Origin: Bacillota bacterium
GTDB lineage: Bacteria; Bacillota; Dehalobacteriia; UBA4068; UBA4997
Assembly: GCA_021771915.1 (NCBI GenBank)
Contig: JAETNY010000015.1
Coordinates: forward strand, 1 to 48,839
Length of the DNA stretch: 48,839 bases
Direction: 5' to 3'
Shown here: positions 1 to 9,725 of the stretch, one piece after another
How positions within the stretch are numbered: position 1 is the first letter of the stretch
Layout: each line of letters starts with the position of its first letter
The notes under the pieces: generated by a model
Databases searched by the model: none
What the model was told of the DNA's origin: nothing
What the model saw: only the letters and a program-made list of their open reading frames with translations
Translations under genes and position numbers: made by a program

Positions 1-107
<107 letters not shown>

Positions 108-162
108 ATTTTTTTTATCCTTTTACCACCCACCCACACCTACCTGCTTTTTGAACCTTTGG

Positions 163-246
163 GGAGAGATGCCAGAGTGGTTATTGGAATGATTTGATAA
201 ATCATCGCACAGTAATGTGTCATGGGTTCGAATCCCATTCTCTCCG
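163..246 (+). tRNA. tRNA-Ser (anticodon UGA)
   Basis: The acceptor strands GGAGAGA (163-169) and TCTCTCC (239-245) pair perfectly. The anticodon stem ATGAT/ATCAT holds the loop TTGATAA, giving anticodon UGA. A long variable arm is present, as expected for class II serine tRNAs, and the T-arm reads ATGGG-TTCGAAT-CCCAT. The discriminator is G246, and CCA is not encoded because CACA follows. It sits 55 bases after the 5S gene and was probably part of the same rRNA transcript or a read-through product. Confidence 0.96.
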
Positions 247-248
247 CA

Positions 249-286
249 CAGGAAGAAGTTTTTATTGTAACTTCTTCCTGTTTTTT
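249..286 (+). terminator. Intrinsic terminator after tRNA-Ser
   Basis: A perfect 12-bp stem (CAGGAAGAAGTT 249-260, AACTTCTTCCTG 269-280) with an 8-base loop is followed by six T. It ends the 5S/tRNA-Ser transcript. Confidence 0.9.
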
Positions 287-288
287 AT

Positions 289-317
289 TTGTCTTTTTGA
301 AATAAATGATATATAAT
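289..317 (+). promoter_or_regulatory. Probable sigma-A promoter of the 338-3861 gene run
   Basis: A -35-like TTGTCT (289-294) and a perfect -10 TATAAT (312-317) are separated by 17 bases. It lies between the tRNA terminator and the first small gene. No other clear promoter is seen before 3861, so it may drive the whole run. Confidence 0.6.
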
Positions 318-337
318 ATAAAAAAGGGGGTATGGGC

Positions 338-685
338 ATGCCGTTCACAGAGATATGTATATATCAGGTTAAACCAGAAAAGGTTGAGGAATTTGAGGCA
401 TTAATCTTGGAAGCTAAAAGTTTTTTAGAAAAACAGGAGGGTCTGCTTTTACTACGCCTTGTTAAAAGGGGTTATCGAATAGATATGCCGCAAATTAAAG
501 AGGGTTTGCCACCGTTAGAGATTACACGCATTGTGAAAAGTGTTAAATATTTGCTTTATTGGGAGTTTGATGCGAAAGAAAACTATGGATTGGCACAAAA
601 AACTCTTTATAACAGCTATTGGAAGTCGATTGAAAAGTGTTTAATTATGCCGCATGATAAGTATTTGGGCGAGCGTTTGTTTTGA
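338..685 (+). CDS. Antibiotic biosynthesis monooxygenase-like (dimeric alpha/beta barrel) protein
   Basis: The 115-residue protein opens with a beta strand and the phrase VKPEKVEEFEAL, followed by a helix and a QEGLLLLRLVKRG strand. This pattern is common in ABM/dimeric alpha-beta-barrel proteins, which act as small oxygenases or heme or quinone enzymes. The start is placed at the second ATG (338) because the ribosome site AAGGGGG (324-330) is only one base from the first ATG at 332 but seven from this one. No catalytic residue can be assigned with confidence. An orphan stress-type barrel protein is the safest reading. It is the first gene after the promoter at 289-317. Confidence 0.55.
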   Translation: MPFTEICIYQVKPEKVEEFEALILEAKSFLEKQEGLLLLRLVKRGYRIDMPQIKEGLPPLEITRIVKSVKYLLYWEFDAKENYGLAQKTLYNSYWKSIEKCLIMPHDKYLGERLF

Positions 686-745
686 TATGTTTATTATAGC
701 CGGCTATGTTTATGAATATATGTTATAGAGAAAGGATAGATTGTT

Positions 746-1414
746 TTGCTGCTAATTCAAGAGGTTAATTTGACCTGGCATAAGCCTGAGCGTGGTGGCG
801 CGGCGGCCAGTGCGCGTCAGCAATTTCCGTTGGCATATGTTTGGCCGGCAGAAAGCGGTCTGCATAATGTAACCTTGCATCGCTTGAATTTTTATCAGGA
901 GGGTGAAAAATTTCTGGATAGTGTTACGGAAATGCGTCATAGCTTACAGGTTTGTGGTCAGAAAATGGCAATGCCGCAATCTGAGATTGACCGTCGGATT
1001 AGTCAGCGCTTATGGCAGATGCAAAAATATGAGCAGCAGTTTTATAACTCGGCTGATGAATTGAATTTGACAAATTTAACGCTGGCTTATTGCGGCGAAA
1101 ATTTGCAGGTTGATTTTTGTTATGATGAGCAACGCAGCGGCAGACCAATGCGCCGTGGGCGAAATAAGGATTTTAATAATCGGCACTCGCGTATGCTGGG
1201 TCGGGATTGTCTGAATGAAAATGCATTTTTGCTTGCGCCGGGTCAATATGGCCGGCTGATTTGGAATGAACGCCGGGTAGATTGTGATACTGGCGGCTGG
1301 TATTATCAGCTGCATGTGTATAATTTGTTATATACGGTGCGCGGCGTGCCGGTGAACGATGTTCTAATCAGGGAGCCTGATTTTGTTTATGAGCAGTTGG
1401 CTGATTTGTATTAG
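746..1414 (+). CDS. Hypothetical protein, 222 residues
   Basis: I do not recognise this family. The protein is soluble, with no signal peptide or membrane segment, and rich in aromatic residues, Asn and Arg. It has a basic patch around residues 130-150 (RPMRRGRNKDFNNRH) and a C-terminal WYYQLHVYN stretch. The start is a TTG at 746 with AAAGGA nine or so bases upstream; no ATG lies near. The next gene starts 18 bases after its stop, so it is probably cotranscribed with the reductase and immunity-like genes that follow. A role linked to that cluster is possible but unsupported by any motif I can see. Confidence 0.6.
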   Translation: MLLIQEVNLTWHKPERGGAAASARQQFPLAYVWPAESGLHNVTLHRLNFYQEGEKFLDSVTEMRHSLQVCGQKMAMPQSEIDRRISQRLWQMQKYEQQFYNSADELNLTNLTLAYCGENLQVDFCYDEQRSGRPMRRGRNKDFNNRHSRMLGRDCLNENAFLLAPGQYGRLIWNERRVDCDTGGWYYQLHVYNLLYTVRGVPVNDVLIREPDFVYEQLADLY

Positions 1415-1432
1415 GAGAAAACGGAGGTATTT

Positions 1433-1990
1433 ATGCGCAGGGTAATTCTATATATTGCTATGAGTTTGGACAGTTACATTGCCGATGTTAATGGCGGCGT
1501 TGGTTGGTTGAATGGCCAAAATCCGGAAATTGAAACTTCTGATAGTTATGCTGAATTTGTGCAGGATATTGATACGGTGATTATGGGCTGGAATACATAT
1601 CGGCAGGTGACCGAGGAATTGTTGCCGGACGAATGGCTTTATGGTGATTTGCAAAGTTATGTGATTACGCATAGGGAAATTGCAGATAAAGAAAGAATTT
1701 ATTTTGTGCAGAATTCGCCGGCCGATTTACTGCGTGGTCTGCTTAAAGAGCCCGGCAGGGATATTTGGATTTGCGGCGGAGCAGGCATTGTGCAGCAGCT
1801 TATGACGGAAAATCTGATTGACCGTTGGCATATTGCCGTTATACCAACGCTTTTAGGCGCAGGTTTACGCCTTTTCGCTAATTTTCGGCCAAAAATTGAC
1901 TTGAAATTGTTACAAACACAAACTTATAATGGTATTGTAGAATTGATATATGAAAGACGCATGACTGAAAGGGTGACTTGCGATGTCTGA
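1433..1990 (+). CDS. Dihydrofolate reductase / RibD C-terminal family protein
   Basis: The 185-residue protein has the family pattern: an N-terminal strand with MSLDSYIAD, the MGWNTY motif near residue 50, WICGGAGIVQQL near residues 110-125 (the glycine-rich NADPH-binding turn), and a C-terminal IPTLLGAGLRLF stretch. Relatives such as YyaP and YwjB are NAD(P)H-binding reductases of unknown substrate; they are not the essential FolA enzyme. It has a good ribosome site (GGAG before ATG 1433). Its last eight bases overlap the start of the SUFU-domain gene, implying translational coupling. The substrate cannot be told from sequence. Confidence 0.85.
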   Translation: MRRVILYIAMSLDSYIADVNGGVGWLNGQNPEIETSDSYAEFVQDIDTVIMGWNTYRQVTEELLPDEWLYGDLQSYVITHREIADKERIYFVQNSPADLLRGLLKEPGRDIWICGGAGIVQQLMTENLIDRWHIAVIPTLLGAGLRLFANFRPKIDLKLLQTQTYNGIVELIYERRMTERVTCDV

Positions 1991-2618
1991 TGAGATAAAA
2001 AAGAACAGCGAACAAAACGGTTGGGAGGCTATTCGCGACGCTTTTGACCGGCTTTATGCGGATACGCTGGAAAATACGCAGCAGTTTGGCACATTGATTA
2101 GCTGGCAGTTGGGTGGACCGAGTCCTCTAGATAGTTTTCGGATTTACGATGGCGGTACATATTGGCATATTGTCGGTTTTGGTTTGTCGGAGTTGTTTGA
2201 AAAGGAGTCAAATAACCCGGAGGTTAGCGGTTATGGCATGGAATTTACTTTTAAACTGCTGAAAGCTGGCTGTGCTGATGTGGATAGAGAGATTAAAACA
2301 GTTATTGGTATTTTTCAGGATTTGGCGCGCCTGACATTTGAGGAGGGCGAAGTTTTTTGGCCTTATGAGTACATTTATACTGGTCAGCAGCAGGGTTTTG
2401 ATTATGAGCAGAAGTCTCGTCTGACTGGTTTTTTCACCGTGCCGGAGCCGCTTTTGACGCAGTTGGACACGCCTTATGGTCAGGTGCAGTTTGTGGAACT
2501 GGTTGGGGCGACGGACGCGGAGTTGCAGGCAATTATGCAGGGGGAAATGCGCGTGCGCGAGCTTTATGAAAAGCTGGGTTCCGATATTACAGATTTATGG
2601 CGTGATAGTTTGGTTTAA
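1983..2618 (+). CDS. SUFU (suppressor of fused) domain protein
   Basis: The 211-residue protein matches the bacterial SUFU domain. The diagnostic parts are SPLDSFRIYDGG (about residues 50-60), YWHIVGFGLSELFEK (about 61-75) and GYGMEFTFKL (about 83-92), with an FFTVPEP segment later. Bacterial SUFU proteins are widely predicted to be immunity proteins against secreted polymorphic toxins, and they often lie in arrays with other immunity genes. Here it overlaps the reductase gene by eight bases and is followed by a membrane microprotein and a DUF2185/DUF4241-like gene. No toxin gene is visible in the window. The family call is firm; the immunity role is inferred. Confidence 0.85.
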   Translation: MSDEIKKNSEQNGWEAIRDAFDRLYADTLENTQQFGTLISWQLGGPSPLDSFRIYDGGTYWHIVGFGLSELFEKESNNPEVSGYGMEFTFKLLKAGCADVDREIKTVIGIFQDLARLTFEEGEVFWPYEYIYTGQQQGFDYEQKSRLTGFFTVPEPLLTQLDTPYGQVQFVELVGATDAELQAIMQGEMRVRELYEKLGSDITDLWRDSLV

Positions 2619-2637
2619 CTGATTGGGAGGTGTCTTT

Positions 2638-2781
2638 ATGGAAATGACTTACGTGCACAGCACCTATCATATGAGCAGCTGGCCGGTGTTGCTGGGAATT
2701 GGCGGTCATTTTATTTTCTTTTGTCTTTGCGTGTTGGGGATTATTCTGCTTATCCGCAGACCCTGGCGAAAGAATAGATAA
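2638..2781 (+). CDS. Small single-pass membrane protein, 47 residues
   Basis: This short gene has an excellent ribosome site (GGGAGG at 2625-2630, seven bases before the ATG). It encodes a hydrophilic N-terminus of about 14 residues, a hydrophobic segment (about residues 16-39, including FIFFCLCVLGIILLI), and a basic tail RRPWRKNR. That predicts one membrane helix with the C-terminus in the cytoplasm. It fits snugly between the SUFU gene (19 bases) and the next gene (12 bases), which supports it as real. I do not recognise a family. Confidence 0.75.
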   Translation: MEMTYVHSTYHMSSWPVLLGIGGHFIFFCLCVLGIILLIRRPWRKNR

Positions 2782-2793
2782 GGAGGTTCGGCG

Positions 2794-3861
2794 ATGTCTA
2801 AACAAGAAACAACGCCGCCGGAAAAGCTGCATATTAAGGGCGCTGGCGGTATGATTATCAGCAAGTCGGTGTTGAATGGGGAGCAGCCTTTGAAGTGGCT
2901 GTTTCGGGACGAATCGCCTTATGGCAGCGGCTGGGTGGCTTTTGGCGCCGGTGATGATGATGAATATGTTAATAATGCGGATAATCTGACAATTATTGAT
3001 TTTAATGAATTGATTGATATGGAGCCGGCGGCTTATAATGTTTATCATATGCCGGTTGGGACGGAATTGGAGCTTTGCGCAGACAAAGGCGAGCGTTTTT
3101 TTGTGGATTGCAAAACCGGCAAGGCGATTTTGGAGCCGGTTAAGCACCCGATGCAGCTGGCTTTTGAGCAGAATTTGCGTTTTTTGAACCAGCCGGAATA
3201 TCCGGAGGAGTTTTGGCAGGGACTATTTCAGGAGAACGAATTTTTACAGCTTTTTGACGTGGGCGAAATTGATTTGTCAACGGGTGAGTTGGTGTTGGCT
3301 GACCCTTTGTCATATTTGGGGACGAAGTATCAGACGGTTTTGGCGCGGCAGGTGGCGGCCGGCAGTTATCCGGTGCAGTTGGCGGTAATGCGGACACGCT
3401 ATGCCGGGCTGCGTTATGTGGCGGCGCGTTTGCTTTTTAGCCAGGAGCCGGTAGTGCGGCATGAAATTGCCATGCCTAAGGGGTATAATCCGGAGGATTT
3501 GGGCAAGCCGCGTGTTTTCAGCTTTTTTGGTGTGGACGCTGGTCTGGCCTGTTTTGCGGATATGGCGCAGGCGCAGGAGTATCAGCGTTTTGCCGGGCAG
3601 TGGTATCAGGATAATCAGGGCAAAAATATTTATAATGATTATTTTGCGGAATTATTTAAGCAAAGTTATGCCCAGCAGTCGGAGCAGCAGCGCGAGTGTA
3701 TTGATTTTCTGCGCTGGCAGCTGCCGGAGAGTGGCAGCCGGCTGATTATGTTTACCAGCGGTTTGGGCGATGGCGTTTACAGCGCTTATTGGGGGCTGGA
3801 CGCGGCCGGCGCGCCGGTGGAGCTGGTTATTCCGTTTATGAATCCGGAATTTTTCAGATAA
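2794..3861 (+). CDS. DUF2185 (Imm33-like) plus DUF4241 two-domain protein
   Basis: The 355-residue protein has two parts. Residues about 18-100 resemble DUF2185/Imm33: GGMIISKSVLNGEQPLKWLF, then SGWVAFGAGDDDEYVNN, DNLTIIDFNELIDMEP and PVGTELE. Residues about 165-355 resemble DUF4241, ending with TSGLGDGVYSAYWGLDAAG and a short hydrophobic tail. Both domains occur in proteins predicted to be polymorphic-toxin immunity factors. The ribosome site is AAGGAGG (2780-2786), seven bases from ATG 2794. It is the last gene before a terminator. The domain calls come from remembered consensus patterns, and the immunity role is inferred from family and neighbours. Confidence 0.75.
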   Translation: MSKQETTPPEKLHIKGAGGMIISKSVLNGEQPLKWLFRDESPYGSGWVAFGAGDDDEYVNNADNLTIIDFNELIDMEPAAYNVYHMPVGTELELCADKGERFFVDCKTGKAILEPVKHPMQLAFEQNLRFLNQPEYPEEFWQGLFQENEFLQLFDVGEIDLSTGELVLADPLSYLGTKYQTVLARQVAAGSYPVQLAVMRTRYAGLRYVAARLLFSQEPVVRHEIAMPKGYNPEDLGKPRVFSFFGVDAGLACFADMAQAQEYQRFAGQWYQDNQGKNIYNDYFAELFKQSYAQQSEQQRECIDFLRWQLPESGSRLIMFTSGLGDGVYSAYWGLDAAGAPVELVIPFMNPEFFR

Positions 3862-3894
3862 AAAGCCTTTGTCAGGCAGTAAGTGTATATAAAA

Positions 3895-3926
3895 AAAACC
3901 CTTGAACCAATCGGTTCAAGGGTTTT
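3895..3926 (+). terminator. Bidirectional terminator between convergent genes
   Basis: A perfect 14-bp stem (AAAACCCTTGAACC 3895-3908, GGTTCAAGGGTTTT 3913-3926) has a four-base loop. A-run and T-run flanks let it act on both strands: for the accessory run on the plus strand and rubrerythrin on the minus strand. Confidence 0.9.
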
Positions 3927-3955
3927 AATGGCTGACAGATTAATTTATTGATAAA

Positions 3956-4498
3956 TTAATAATTTTCCGGCTTGATTTCAAAATAAGCCTGTGGGTGGCT
4001 GCATACCGGGCAAATGGCCGGAGCTTGCTCGCCAACGTGGATATGGCCGCAGTTTAAGCAAATCCAAACAGTCTGACCCTGACGCGCGAAAACCAGACCC
4101 TGCTCAATGTTGGCCAGAAGTTTACGATAGCGCATTTCATGCTCTTTTTCCACCTGAGCAACGCCGTCAAACAGATTGGCGATTTTATCAAAGCCCTCCT
4201 CACGGGCGGTTTTGGCAAAATCAGCATACATGCTTGTCCACTCAAAATTTTCGCCCTCGGCGGCGTCTTTCAGGTTTTGCTCGGTTTTGGGCATAGCGTC
4301 GTCATGCAGCAGCTTAAACCAGATTTTGGCATGCTCCTTTTCATTGGCGGCAGTTTCCTCAAAAATCCGGGAAATCTGCACATAACCGTCCTTTTTGGCC
4401 TGTGAAGCATAGTATTGATATTTGGTATGCGCCTGAGATTCTCCAGCAAAAGCGGTAATCAGGTTTTGTTCGGTCTTGCTGCCTTTTAATTCGCTCAT
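3956..4498 (-). CDS. rbr: Rubrerythrin
   Basis: This 180-residue protein is a cytoplasmic non-haem iron peroxidase that reduces hydrogen peroxide, a standard oxidative-stress defence in anaerobes. The N-terminal ferritin-like four-helix domain shows the di-iron ligands in [12 protein letters not shown] (about residue 20), ANEKEH (about 52) and VEKEHEMRY (about 117). The C-terminal rubredoxin-like domain has CLNCGH and CPVCSH for the Fe(Cys)4 site. Length and order fit classical rubrerythrin. The start ATG has AGGAGG just upstream. It is monocistronic, with its own promoter and a PerR-like site. Confidence 0.97.
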
Positions 4499-4520
4499 TT
4501 TAAATCCTCCTGTTGTCTAA

Positions 4521-4578
4521 TAAGAATAATTATCGTTAGATTGTAGATAATTATATCATATTTGGCAGACTTTGGCAA
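4521..4578 (-). promoter_or_regulatory. Rubrerythrin promoter with PerR-like operator
   Basis: On the minus strand TTGCCA (4578-4573) and TATAAT (4555-4550) are 17 bases apart, a good sigma-A promoter. Downstream of the expected start, 4521-4535 reads TAAGAATAATTATCG on the plus strand. It matches 10 of the 14 defined positions of the Bacillus PerR box TTATAATNATTATAA. Peroxide-responsive repression would make sense for rubrerythrin. The promoter is well supported; the operator is a modest match. Confidence 0.6.
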
Positions 4579-4790
4579 GGGGCAGGACTATTAAAAAGTT
4601 GATGTTTATTCGACAGCAAACGCCGGCGTTCAGAGCGCTTGACAGCCGATAAGCGCGAATTTGCTCCGCAGAAATATTTCTATAAATGATGATTGCTCCT
4701 GGCTGCTGAAAATATTTTGTATAAAGTTTAACATGTTGGCAGGAAAAAAACATTATTTAACATATATAATATAAATAGAGCATTTAAAAA
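4579..4790. other. Intergenic gap between divergent rbr and traX-like gene
   Basis: No gene is seen. The stretch holds a 12-bp perfect palindrome AACGCCGGCGTT (about 4619-4630) and a GCGCTT/AAGCGC stem (about 4635-4656). A TATAAT at 4765-4770 lies upstream of the next gene but lacks a well-spaced -35, so it is only a candidate -10 element. Confidence 0.4.
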
Positions 4791-4801
4791 GAGGTGATAT
4801 A

Positions 4802-5584
4802 TTGTCGCGCAACAGTTTTTGGTTATCTCTCAACAGCTTTGATTTAAAAATATTGGCGGTTATTTTTATGGTAATTGACCATATCGGTTTGTTTATTGAC
4901 GGCACTCCGGTCTGGTTTCGTTATATTGGCCGGCTGTCCTATCCGTTGTTTTTGTTCTGTCTGGTTTGGAGTTATCATTATACGCACAGCCGGCTGTGGT
5001 TTTGTCTGCGTCTGTATTTAATGGGGCTGTTTATGGCGGCGCTGCGCTGGTGGGTGGAGGTTTATCAGTGGCCGGAGGCCGGCAGTTTTTATAATCATAA
5101 TATTTTTGTTACAATGCTGCTGACCTGCCTGTTAATCAGCGTGATTGAGTTGGCCGGTCAGGATAAACTGCGCTGCGGCCTGCTGCTGGGCGGCCTTCTG
5201 GCGGTACAGCTGGCGTTTTATGCCGCGCCCTGGTATCTGCTGCCGCAGCTGCGCCGCTTCAGCGGCGATATTCTGACGGCCATTTTCCCTAATCTGGCCT
5301 TAAATGAATTTGGCTATGAGTTTGTGGCGCTGGGGGTGGCTATGTATTTTCTTAAAACGCGCCCGGACAAAATGGCGGCTGTCTATTTGCTGTTTGGGAT
5401 ATTGCTGTTCAGCCGGGAACTGCTTGGCGATATGGAAGCCTCGCATCAGTTTATCATGGTGCTGGCGCTGCCCTTTATGCTGCTTTATAATCGGCAGAAA
5501 GGGCGCGGCTGGAAATGGTTTTTTTACATATTTTACCCGTTGCATGTGTTTATCCTGTTTTACCTGGCTAATTTTGTTTTATAA
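4802..5584 (+). CDS. TraX family membrane protein
   Basis: The 260-residue polytopic membrane protein begins with the TraX-family pattern: SFDLKILAVIFMVIDHIGLF, a conserved histidine in the first helix, then RYIGRLSYPLFLFCLVW. About eight hydrophobic segments follow, ending with YIFYPLHVFILFYL. TraX proteins are related to membrane acyltransferases; F-plasmid TraX acetylates pilin. Chromosomal Firmicute copies without conjugation genes are common and their substrate is unknown. The start is TTG 4802 with GAGGTGAT (4791-4798) a few bases upstream. The PHP gene follows within 20 bases, so they are probably cotranscribed. Confidence 0.85.
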   Translation: MSRNSFWLSLNSFDLKILAVIFMVIDHIGLFIDGTPVWFRYIGRLSYPLFLFCLVWSYHYTHSRLWFCLRLYLMGLFMAALRWWVEVYQWPEAGSFYNHNIFVTMLLTCLLISVIELAGQDKLRCGLLLGGLLAVQLAFYAAPWYLLPQLRRFSGDILTAIFPNLALNEFGYEFVALGVAMYFLKTRPDKMAAVYLLFGILLFSRELLGDMEASHQFIMVLALPFMLLYNRQKGRGWKWFFYIFYPLHVFILFYLANFVL

Positions 5585-5602
5585 GAGAAAAGGGGTTTGT
5601 TT

Positions 5603-6475
5603 ATGAATAATATAGAGAAATGGCTTGGCGATGTGCGGAGTGATGAATTTTTACAGGGGCGTTTTGATATGCACGTCCATACCACAACTTCCGACGGTCT
5701 CTGGTCGCCGACGGATATTGTACGGCTGGCTAAGGAGCGCGGTCTGAGTGGGCTGGCGATTACTGACCATGATACGCTGGACGGTCTGGCGGAGGCGGCA
5801 GAAGCGGCGGAAAAAATGGGTGTCAAACTGATTTTTGGCGTGGAGTTAAGTACGGAGGTTACAGAGGCGGACGAGCCTTATGAAGTGCATATGTTGGGTT
5901 ATTTTCCTGGTTTGGAACTTCCGGACGCACCGCAGCTTCTGGCGCGCCTGCGTGAGCAGCAGCAAAGCCGGCGCGGACGCGGTCTGAAAATGGTGGAGAA
6001 GCTGGCAGAGTTGGGTATGCCGCTGGATACAGGCTTTTTGCAGGAATATGCAGAAAACGGTTCAGTTGGTCGCGGTTTGATTGCCCGGAAAATGCTGGAG
6101 GCCGGTTATGTGCAGACCCGGGAGGAGGTTTTCAGCAAATGGCTGGGGCAGGGGTGTCCGGCTTATGTGCCGCACCAGCGTTTGCAGCCAATGGAGGCCT
6201 TGCGGCTGGTGCAGGCTTCTGGTGGTATGGCGGTTATGGCGCACCCGGCGCAGGCTGCGCATGATGAGTTGGTGCCGCAGCTGGTGGCAGCTGGTTTGAA
6301 TGGTTTGGAGTGTCGTCACCCGGACCAGCCGGCCGGTGCGTTGCAGGAGCATTATTTGCAGCTGGCCGCCAGTCTGGGGCTGTCCGTTACGGGCGGTTCG
6401 GATTGTCATGACAGCGGTCTGGGGGATTTTACCACGAGCGGTGCAGAATTATTAAAGCTTTTTAAAATTAAATAG
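5603..6475 (+). CDS. PHP-domain phosphoesterase (YciV / RNase AM-like)
   Basis: The 290-residue protein shows the PHP metal-binding motifs in order: DMHVHTTTSDG (about residues 22-32), TDHDT (about 54-58), GVELS, MAHPAQA (about 212-218) and GGSDCHD (about 267-273). This layout matches the YciV/RNase AM group, which uses three metal ions to hydrolyse 3',5'-bisphosphonucleotides or trim RNA 5' ends. The ATG at 5603 is preferred over an in-frame TTG at 5597 because AAAAGGGG (5588-5595) is properly spaced from it. Substrate assignment is by family resemblance. Confidence 0.85.
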   Translation: MNNIEKWLGDVRSDEFLQGRFDMHVHTTTSDGLWSPTDIVRLAKERGLSGLAITDHDTLDGLAEAAEAAEKMGVKLIFGVELSTEVTEADEPYEVHMLGYFPGLELPDAPQLLARLREQQQSRRGRGLKMVEKLAELGMPLDTGFLQEYAENGSVGRGLIARKMLEAGYVQTREEVFSKWLGQGCPAYVPHQRLQPMEALRLVQASGGMAVMAHPAQAAHDELVPQLVAAGLNGLECRHPDQPAGALQEHYLQLAASLGLSVTGGSDCHDSGLGDFTTSGAELLKLFKIK

Positions 6476-6572: not shown

Positions 6573-6890
6573 TTGGCAAATGAAAAGGTTTATCAATTAG
6601 AGCTGCTGCCCTGTTTTGGCGGCGAGCATGTTCCCAGCCCGACGGAGCAGCTTTTGAGCCGGCGTGTGGCGGCTTTGGAGGAACGTCTGGAGCAGATGAA
6701 ACTTTCCCGGCGTGTGCTGCTGCGTCTGCTGGACAGGGCTGAGAGTGACCGTAAGGTTGAGGTGGGCAATCTGCGCCTGGAAAATCAGCGGCTGAAAAAG
6801 CAAAATCAGGCGCTGGCCAACAGTCTTTGGGCCAAGAACAGCCAGATTGTGCGTTTGAAGATGAATATTAATGAAGCTGATTATCAATAA
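6573..6890 (+). CDS. Coiled-coil hypothetical protein, 105 residues
   Basis: I do not recognise a named family. From about residue 25 to 95 the protein is a continuous charged heptad-like helix (VAALEERLEQMKLSRR, then NLRLENQRLKKQNQALANSL), typical of a dimeric coiled coil. The start is TTG 6573 with AAGGAGG (6557-6563) nine bases upstream. It is followed at once by a terminator. A structural or adaptor role is plausible but not demonstrated by any motif. Confidence 0.7.
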   Translation: MANEKVYQLELLPCFGGEHVPSPTEQLLSRRVAALEERLEQMKLSRRVLLRLLDRAESDRKVEVGNLRLENQRLKKQNQALANSLWAKNSQIVRLKMNINEADYQ

Positions 6891-7049: not shown

Positions 7050-8513
<1,464 letters not shown>

Positions 8514-8582
8514 TAGCACGTCATCTGTTTCGTTGTCAAAATATCCACTTGATTATTGTATAATTTATAGGGAAGTGATTGT

Positions 8583-8738
8583 TTGGGGACAGGTGTAATC
8601 GGCGGCGCGGACGGTCAGACTGTGATTTTTATGACCGGTTCACCGATAGGCTTTATCGCACTGGTGGGCGGCGGTTTGCTGCTTTTGGCATTGATGGGCG
8701 GTCTGCTGTTTGCTATTGTCAAACGGCACGGCGAGTAA
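8583..8738 (+). CDS. Small membrane protein with decarboxylase beta-subunit motif, 51 residues
   Basis: The protein starts MGTGVIGGADGQTVIF and continues into one strongly hydrophobic helix (about residues 22-45) and a short basic tail. The motif G-I-I-G-G-A-D-G-P-T-x-I-F is a hallmark inside the beta subunit of sodium-pumping decarboxylases (OadB/GcdB), where it lies in a membrane region linked to Na+ transport. Here it stands alone at the start of a tiny protein, with Gln in place of the usual Pro. The start is TTG 8583, with GGAAGTGA (8571-8578) upstream. No decarboxylase genes are nearby. It is likely a genuine small protein; its role is unknown. Confidence 0.65.
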   Translation: MGTGVIGGADGQTVIFMTGSPIGFIALVGGGLLLLALMGGLLFAIVKRHGE

Positions 8739-8754
8739 AGAGAGTCTGATATTT

Positions 8755-8853
8755 ATGGTTTTGACTTTGCTGTTTTTTCCTGCCGCGGTGCTGGGCGCGG
8801 TTTTGCTGATTGGCGCTGTGGTGTATGCTATCATGAAGCAAGGCGATGATTAA
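8755..8853 (+). CDS. Very small membrane protein, 32 residues
   Basis: The ORF opens 16 bases after the previous stop and encodes MVLTLLFFPAAVLGAVLLIG, then a short helix end and the tail MKQGDD. It is one hydrophobic helix with a charged C-terminus. The ribosome site (AGAGAG) is weak. The reading frame ends just before a strong terminator, so it closes a two-gene transcript. It could be a partner of the 51-residue protein, or an accidental frame; I lean towards real because of the hydrophobic pattern and position. Confidence 0.45.
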   Translation: MVLTLLFFPAAVLGAVLLIGAVVYAIMKQGDD

Positions 8854-8870
8854 TTTGATACAAAAATTAG

Positions 8871-8906
8871 AGTGGCGATGCGTAAAATACGTGTCGCCAC
8901 TTTTAA
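8871..8906 (+). terminator. Intrinsic terminator after the two microproteins
   Basis: AGTGGCGA (8871-8878) pairs with TCGCCACT (8894-8901), with an additional inner CGTA/TACG pairing, and is followed by TTTTAAAA. Confidence 0.85.
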
Positions 8907-9270: not shown

Positions 9271-9416
9271 CGGTTTGGTTTATCAGGCTTGTTTGATTTG
9301 CCCAGACCAGCACAAGCGATGAAGTGAGAGGTTGCTTTATACGGCTATGCCTGCCGGGTAAAGGTTTTCTCACAGAGCCAGTTCGTAAAGAATACGAGCG
9401 AAAAGGAGGTAAAAAT
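9271..9416 (+). promoter_or_regulatory. Structured leader of the S10 operon
   Basis: About 145 untranslated bases precede rpsJ. GTGAGA (9324-9329) can pair with TCTCAC (9368-9373), enclosing a CGGC/GCCG hairpin (9342-9345 with 9353-9356). Ribosomal-protein feedback on such leaders is known in other bacteria; here regulation is only inferred from length and folding. Confidence 0.4.
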
Positions 9417-9725
9417 ATGTCGCAACAAAAAATCCGTATCCGTTTGAAAGCTTATGACCACAAGCTGCTTGATGTGTCTGCTGTTCAGATTGTTGATACT
9501 GCCAAGAGGACAGGCGCAAGGGTTTCCGGGCCGATTCCGCTGCCCACTGAAAAGAGTGTGTACACCATTCTGCGCTCTCCTCATGTCAATAAGGATTCTC
9601 GTGAGCAGTTTGAAATGCGCACCCATAAACGCCTGATTGACATTCTGGAGCCGACTCCTAAAACAGTCGATTCCTTGATGCATTTGGATTTGCCGGCTGG
9701 CATTGAAATTGACATCAAACTTTAG
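9417..9725 (+). CDS. rpsJ: 30S ribosomal protein S10
   Basis: The 102-residue protein matches S10 throughout ([14 protein letters not shown], then [20 protein letters not shown] and HKRLIDI). S10 sits in the 30S head and also, as NusE, joins transcription antitermination complexes. An open frame extends 31 codons upstream, but the ATG at 9417 has AAAGGAGG nine bases before it and gives the usual length. It is the first gene of the cluster. Confidence 0.98.

Follow-up and report, generated by a model that had tools for sequence, protein, structure and literature searches.

Behind guaB, a gene of purine synthesis, in the window (the whole 48,839-nucleotide stretch of DNA analysed here), lies a short gene whose product carries a peptide known from the Na+ site of an ion pump, raising the question of why a protein of 51 residues should contain such a segment. 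An ion-pump active-site signature is usually taken as diagnostic of the pump, but this one, including the Asp of the Na+ site, is also kept in a family of microproteins and in unrelated proteins. An earlier note on the locus, made from its letters, had offered a regulator, a decoy subunit or a remnant as possible answers.

Organization of the guaB-ORF1-ORF2 locus

The features of the locus are listed in Table 1. The two tandem frames of 51 and 32 residues that the earlier note had read at this place, the second of them hydrophobic, are confirmed; they translate as MGTGVIGGADGQTVIFMTGSPIGFIALVGGGLLLLALMGGLLFAIVKRHGE (ORF1) and MVLTLLFFPAAVLGAVLLIGAVVYAIMKQGDD (ORF2). The guaB gene is the upstream member of an apparent common transcription unit with both frames, and the three would form a single unit because of their spacing and the hairpins found behind them. 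The guaB stop is separated from the ORF1 start by 69 nt in the window and by 15-16 nt in three genomes of the same genus (G005, G006 and G007), in all of which GGAAGTGATT is retained before the ORF1 homologue. A promoter scan returned none between guaB and ORF1; by eye, TTGTCA and TATAAT are found there, 20 nt apart. The hairpin behind ORF2 is absent from the output of a consensus terminator scan, probably because its T-run sits within the stem. In G006, a hairpin of unlike sequence (z -7.90), with no clear U run after it, lies 3' of ORF2. The S10-Clostridia leader belongs to the next transcription unit and stands outside the finding on ORF1 and ORF2.

Table 1. Features of the guaB-ORF1-ORF2 locus, in window coordinates.
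Feature	Position	Strand	Basis or remark
guaB (IMP dehydrogenase)	7062..8513	+	NCBIfam TIGR01302, 648.5 bits, over cut-off
Shine-Dalgarno-like GGGAAGTG	8570..8577	+	read from sequence; 5 nt 5' of ORF1 start
ORF1, 51 aa, single-pass membrane microprotein	8583..8738	+	TTG start
ORF1 codons for GVIGGADGQTVIF (residues 4-16)	8592..8630	+	matches H1 hairpin tip of OAD beta subunit
ORF2, 32 aa, hydrophobic microprotein, without the motif	8755..8853	+	ATG start
Terminator-like RNA hairpin, strong	8869..8903	+	directly 3' of ORF2; MFE -23.7 kcal/mol, z -7.58
S10-Clostridia ribosomal protein leader	9311..9401	+	Rfam RF03136, 38.4 bits, gathering 35.1

Topology and predicted structure of ORF1

ORF1 consists of the motif near its N-terminus, one transmembrane (TM) helix and a basic C-terminal tail (KRHGE); the single helix, already read in the earlier note, is returned by both the TM analysis and the structural model. 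In the model (mean pLDDT 79.5), a helix spans residues 21-50 and is well predicted in its middle, and the motif forms a strand-turn-strand of low confidence (strands 3-6 and 13-16). A 105-aa motif protein from G039 was modelled as two helices with no strands (mean pLDDT 73.7). The motif's mode of action is not visible in either of these predicted structures.

Relationship of the motif to the beta subunit of Na+-pumping decarboxylases

Residues 4-20 of ORF1 match the hairpin tip of the decarboxylase beta subunit that contains the Na+-site residue Asp203. Against the beta subunit of the same genome, 10 of 17 residues are identical (BLASTP E 3e-5 for that lone comparison), and the pattern GGNGGNDCNGAYGGNCMNACN has two occurrences in this genome, namely ORF1 and the resident beta subunit, with none for the reversed control. 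On these alignments the likeness exceeds chance. In the beta subunit of PDB 6iva/6iww, the region aligned by the motif profile A5 is residues 192-213, and Asp10 of ORF1 corresponds to Asp203. The structural account describes a fold of ten TM helices with two hairpins (H1 and H2) and Asp203 at the tip of H1, and states that changing this residue to Ala eliminated Na+ binding (PMC7274780).

The Pfam profile OAD_beta finds the ORF1 homologues of G008 (E 3.6e-6), G005 (1.8e-4) and G006 (7.8e-4), the scores in the genus being 18.2-25.7 bits and not reaching the cut-off of 31.6; the window copy gave no match at E<=10 and was also missed by the OAD_beta profile search of the genus. BLASTP, the pattern search and these matches on homologues together bear out the assignment of GGADG to Na+-pump beta subunits made in the earlier note. 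Set beside the OadB/GcdB/MmdB beta subunit (PF03977, TIGR01109; PDB 6iva, 6iww), ORF1 shares the hairpin-tip peptide with Asp203 in GGADGPT, with Gln in place of the Pro that the other 10 aligned microproteins have, but it measures 51 residues against about 400, possesses one TM helix against ten and two hairpins, and does not attain the family's cut-off score. The N-terminal segment of ORF1 reproduces the peptide of the hairpin tip, including the Asp of the Na+ site.

Conservation and selection within the genus

The gene for this single-pass membrane microprotein is conserved behind guaB. Among nine sampled genomes of the genus, guaB was found in eight; ORF1 follows it in five (G000, G005, G006, G007 and G008), four of them with an intact frame, and is not behind guaB in G001, G002 and G003. 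In G007 the frame is broken inside the motif by a one-base length difference, either a true lesion or an assembly error. In each of G001-G004 the single motif match falls in a 404-aa frame, the beta subunit, and there is no standalone copy. Counterparts of ORF2 are present in G005, G006 and G007; in G008 the interval from the ORF1 homologue to the following gene contains no ORF2-like frame.

Between G005 and G006, 13 of the changes in ORF1 are synonymous and 3 are nonsynonymous (dN/dS 0.077, Fisher 8e-6), so that ORF1 is under purifying selection at least in this lineage. The ratio is 0.38 for G000-G005 and 0.63 for G000-G006, and guaB gives 0.007-0.047 across the same genome pairs. ORF1 may be relaxing or decaying in the G000/G007 lineage, to which the Gln for Pro in the window and the broken frame of G007 point. 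For ORF2, dN/dS ranges from 0.27 to 0.82, and in the two pairs tested, neutrality was rejected for G007-G005 (P 0.008) but not for G005-G006 (P 0.33); ORF2 is likely coding and weakly constrained.

Microproteins of the same plan in other lineages

Besides ORF1, ten single-pass microproteins carry the motif, three from the genus and seven from other genomes (G278, G324, G165, G338, G293, G029 and G332). In all 11, the motif starts at residue 5-16 and the best hydrophobic stretch lies C-terminal to it, giving one TM helix and a basic tail. The C-side is net positive in every one and the N-side net negative, the latter largely because the motif itself contains an Asp. Under the positive-inside rule, such basic tails would be inside and the motif probably outside, at the membrane face. 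The earlier note had held that its reading would fall with a disrupted frame in relatives or a lack of similar small proteins elsewhere: such proteins do exist, and the frame is disrupted in one of four carrier relatives (G007).

Microproteins that score well are uncommon. With profile A4 at E<=1e-12, a threshold at which weaker carriers such as G165 and G324 fall out, nine of 398 phylum genomes match, seven of these in short frames, four of which belong to the genus. A survey with the motif pattern matched at least 598 stretches, and 10 loci were confirmed among the matches listed. In G076 and G117, the matches in short frames turned out to be fragments of beta subunits.

Among the neighbourhoods examined, adjacency to guaB is confined to this genus, and outside it no common neighbourhood emerged from best NCBIfam matches (several below cut-off) or from reading. 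In G338 a microprotein with GGQDGPT lies between purC and purF (locus L103, 17-2322, minus strand); the other neighbours are purA (G230), map (G165), prmA (G029), a patatin gene (G060), a HAD gene (G039) and, in G278 and G324, a transporter gene together with a gene that we take to be gamma-glutamyltransferase-like. The adjacency to purine genes (guaB, purC/purF, purA) was seen after the fact, alongside map, prmA, transporter, patatin, HAD and an OAD-type operon. Proximity to a decarboxylase operon, which the earlier note had proposed to look for along with proximity to guaB, was seen at one locus (L053). At locus L103, a purE-like gene (by reading) lies upstream of the purC/purF microprotein locus.

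At L053 (Caproiciproducens faecalis, 28-5598), a 94-aa motif protein with two TM stretches is flanked, by reading, on one side by a beta-subunit operon and on the other by S10-operon ribosomal proteins. The motif of that beta-subunit operon is GVIGAADGPTSILVS; the window ORFs likewise sit immediately before the S10 operon.

The same peptide in larger or unrelated proteins

Motif proteins of 94-105 aa occur in G039, G060, G333 and G230, three with two TM-like stretches and the G060 protein with one clear stretch. Three further proteins (L054, L056, L059) contain a HAAS domain (PF22564) over the Pfam cut-off, and two more (L114, L130) appear HAAS-like by likeness. In L057 (3983-4681, plus strand) the peptide forms an N-terminal extension of a PlsY acyltransferase (PF02660, 182.9 bits), and in L212 (1802-3205, minus strand) GGADGPT stands on the C-terminal tail of an MFS transporter (PF07690, 107.6 bits). 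L051 encodes a 274-aa motif protein that is ABC-2-like, below cut-off; L055 (200 aa) and L119 (181 aa) gave no Pfam match over cut-off. A 263-aa frame of G098 (L210, 5252-6040, plus strand) has a signal-peptide-like start and, near its C-end, GSADGPT (SIGVIGSADGPTAIHI) followed by a hydrophobic C-terminal stretch.

A family of about 330-510 aa (L166, L209, L131 and L118, the last ending at a contig end) carries the motif near its C-terminus, in GTADGPT form in L209. Pfam returned only OAD_beta for these four, at the motif and below cut-off, and apart from one of 1.61 in L166 they contain no 19-residue stretch above hydropathy 1.6. The motif holds its place in this domain-less family at overall identities of 46% (L118-L166) and 24% (L131-L166). 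Wobble bases vary among motif copies, so the conservation is at the amino-acid level, where selection acts. Other lineages have microproteins built like ORF1, and unrelated proteins contain the peptide as well, so that it looks like a reused functional module; its presence in unrelated families also weakens a purely pump-subunit reading.

Co-occurrence and possible co-adaptation with the full beta subunit

The genome of the window encodes one full-length beta subunit. Beside it are frames of 514 aa, of 128 aa (one TM stretch, Ala/Pro-rich) and, by reading, of 126 aa with EAMKM; the first and last are presumably the carboxyltransferase and the biotin carrier, and the cluster, we assume, is of the methylmalonyl-CoA-decarboxylase type. 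It lies on contig C42, away from ORF1 on C36. All nine genomes of the genus have a full beta subunit, with or without the microprotein.

Outside the genus, a full-length OAD_beta match over cut-off is present in 18 of 19 carrier genomes, a set that excludes G098 (GSADGPT) and G104 (GTADGPT), in which motif-profile matches also lie in other frames, of 381 aa in G098 and of 379 and 477 aa in G104. The exception is G338, a metagenome bin with a microprotein and no full-length beta subunit. A motif-profile match of any kind is found in 64 of the 129 genomes from the phylum and in 27 of the 43 from the class, rates against which 18/19 gives binomial values of 3e-5 and 0.0018, with carriers drawn from motif searches and clades unmatched; collapsing related carriers to 17 gives 1e-4 and 0.004. 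Against the 7/8 rate in family f28 the excess is gone (P 0.29); for G278, order and family comprise the same 8 genomes. Since the carriers came from motif searches and the clades are unmatched, the co-occurrence is suggestive. ORF1 may still be the regulator or decoy subunit of the earlier note.

Partial OAD_beta matches point to the same segment. All three in the genus cover the hairpin-tip positions 115-130, as do 22 of 25 in short or non-pump frames of the 19 genomes, which were picked as carriers (full-length and contig-end pump frames set aside). The other three all come from G060, two being 27-aa frames at 324-349 and one a weak match at 190-266.

For co-adaptation, 15 of 20 genomes were compared, with one beta subunit each, leaving out near relatives (G005, G006, G324) and genomes without the motif pattern in the beta subunit (G060, G230). 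The residue before the first motif Gly is V in 12 of 15 standalone copies of all classes (I in two, T in one; V in three of the six single-pass microproteins of this set) and I in 15 of 15 beta subunits. A standalone copy shares on average 12.07 of 16 residues with its own beta subunit and 11.86 with the others (P 0.21). This V/I split, with no higher identity to the own subunit, makes it less likely that the standalone copies arose again and again from the resident gene, and speaks just as much against their close co-adaptation with the resident beta subunit. ORF1 is thus unlikely to be a recent remnant of the resident pump.

A mobile or phage origin was also considered and rejected. Window positions 8520-8870 had no blastn match in plasmids, and the motif and TM region of L059 had none there at E<=0.01. 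The same L059 query found five matches in a phage collection, each covering 34-38% of it; of four examined, all unverified records, three hold beta-subunit frames of 407-423 aa and the fourth a beta-subunit-like stretch with GAADGPT. In viral contigs 98 stretches fit the pattern, the two confirmed being a protein HAAS-like by likeness and a member of the domain-less family. The best PHROGs match was a holin on L207 (E 0.043), and PADLOC returned none among four proteins submitted.

Possible roles of ORF1

Tentatively, and with a probability that falls short of even, we take ORF1 to be a selected membrane microprotein acting through its motif segment, the likeliest single partner being the Na+-pumping decarboxylase. 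ORF1 and its family are presumably translated, and the exposed segment would serve as an interaction or docking element in the membrane. The beta subunit of the decarboxylase has the same loop; the microprotein could bind alongside the pump where that loop sits, or close by, and so stabilise or modulate the pump. As genus members without the microprotein keep the pump, the microprotein would be an accessory. The fixed place behind guaB, purifying selection, the common plan, the concentration of partial OAD_beta matches on the hairpin tip, the amino-acid-level conservation of the motif, the 18 of 19 carriers with a pump and the full beta subunit of the own genome count for this reading. Against it stand the segment on the MFS C-tail and in the domain-less family, where an outside loop cannot matter; G338, the f28 comparison and the lack of motif tracking; the distance of ORF1 from the pump genes, the pump without a standalone copy in G001-G004, and possible decay.

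Only slightly less likely is a second reading, in which the peptide has nothing to do with pumping and serves generally for docking or self-association: many proteins would carry it to bind each other or one common partner, and the beta subunit would be just one carrier. It occurs in single-TM, two-TM, HAAS, PlsY, MFS, ABC-2-like (below cut-off) and domain-less proteins, and in the last is kept at overall identities of 24-46%; the beta subunit of the own genome is not tracked, G338 has no full one, and the ORF1 model places a low-confidence strand-turn-strand at the motif. The MFS tail and the domain-less family argue that an outside membrane loop is not the only form in which the peptide can act, and this explanation therefore stays strong, although 18 of 19 carriers possess the pump, no partner is known and the two-TM relative was modelled without strands. 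Bacterial amyloid signalling motifs are short interaction motifs common to unrelated proteins. Like them, the GGADGPT peptide is about 16-20 residues long and reused at varied positions in unrelated proteins; the difference is that in OadB it is a structured hairpin tip. Amyloid-type motifs are marked by homotypic assembly, on which the low-confidence strand-turn-strand modelled for ORF1 is the one observation that bears. More speculative, and unlikely as a whole, is the proposal that GGADGPT, some 16 residues derived from or shared with the pump hairpin, is a mobile module for interaction. Attached to microproteins, HAAS-domain proteins, a lipid acyltransferase, an MFS transporter and the domain-less family, it would let them bind a common partner or each other in a manner tied to the sodium-pump state of the cell.

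The remnant of the earlier note, a beta-subunit gene fragment kept by chance behind guaB and decaying there, is improbable. The broken G007 frame, the Gln for Pro, the absence behind guaB in G001-G003 and the higher dN/dS of G000 against G005 and G006 would fit it. It is disfavoured by purifying selection between G005 and G006, by the constant position within the genus, by the recurrence of this short plan in seven other genomes, and by the first motif column, which is V in most standalone copies, though in only half of the single-pass ones, and I in the beta subunits.

That ORF1 is a missing small pump subunit like OadG or GcdD/MmdD is very improbable. ORF1 resembles these subunits in being a small membrane protein with one TM stretch, and most carriers possess the pump. 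However, members of that class have an N-terminal TM stretch, an Ala/Pro-rich cytoplasmic part and a place in the pump operon, and ORF1 has no Ala/Pro-rich tail and is found on a different contig. Such a counterpart is already present in the own pump cluster, unlike ORF1 in being Ala/Pro-rich, in that cluster and free of GGADG: the 128-aa frame, with its N-terminal hydrophobic stretch and Ala/Pro-rich part, follows the plan given for GcdD in PMC7145394.

That the segment is an LPXTG- or CTERM-like signal for sorting or anchoring, built of motif, TM and basic tail, is hardly to be expected, for although the microproteins have this order, and the 263-aa frame of G098 has GSADGPT before its C-terminal hydrophobic stretch, the weak sorting-domain matches are below cut-off (Gram_pos_anchor 7.4 bits against 20, VPEID-CTERM 7 against 33), almost nothing lies N-terminal to the ORF1 motif, and in other carriers the motif is internal or N-terminal, or stands on a tail that no TM follows.

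If the segment is a docking module, it would open a route to what controls Na+-pumping decarboxylases in anaerobes. The recurrence of the peptide also calls for caution, as motif-based annotation can mislabel unrelated proteins as pump subunits. A literature search, with most subscription journals outside its coverage, found no paper on standalone copies of the motif.

Other frames in the window

Upstream of guaB, the window encodes a TraX-family membrane protein (4802-5584, plus strand; PF05857, 74.1 bits), followed by a PHP-type gene (5597-6475) whose best NCBIfam matches are below cut-off. A 105-aa ORF at 6573-6890 (plus strand) matches no family over cut-off; similar frames lie near guaB in G007 and G008, and in G005 on the opposite strand. 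Downstream, the longest frame of what we take to be ribosomal protein S10 (9324-9725, plus strand) begins within the S10 leader, and the ATG at 9417 is the likelier start.
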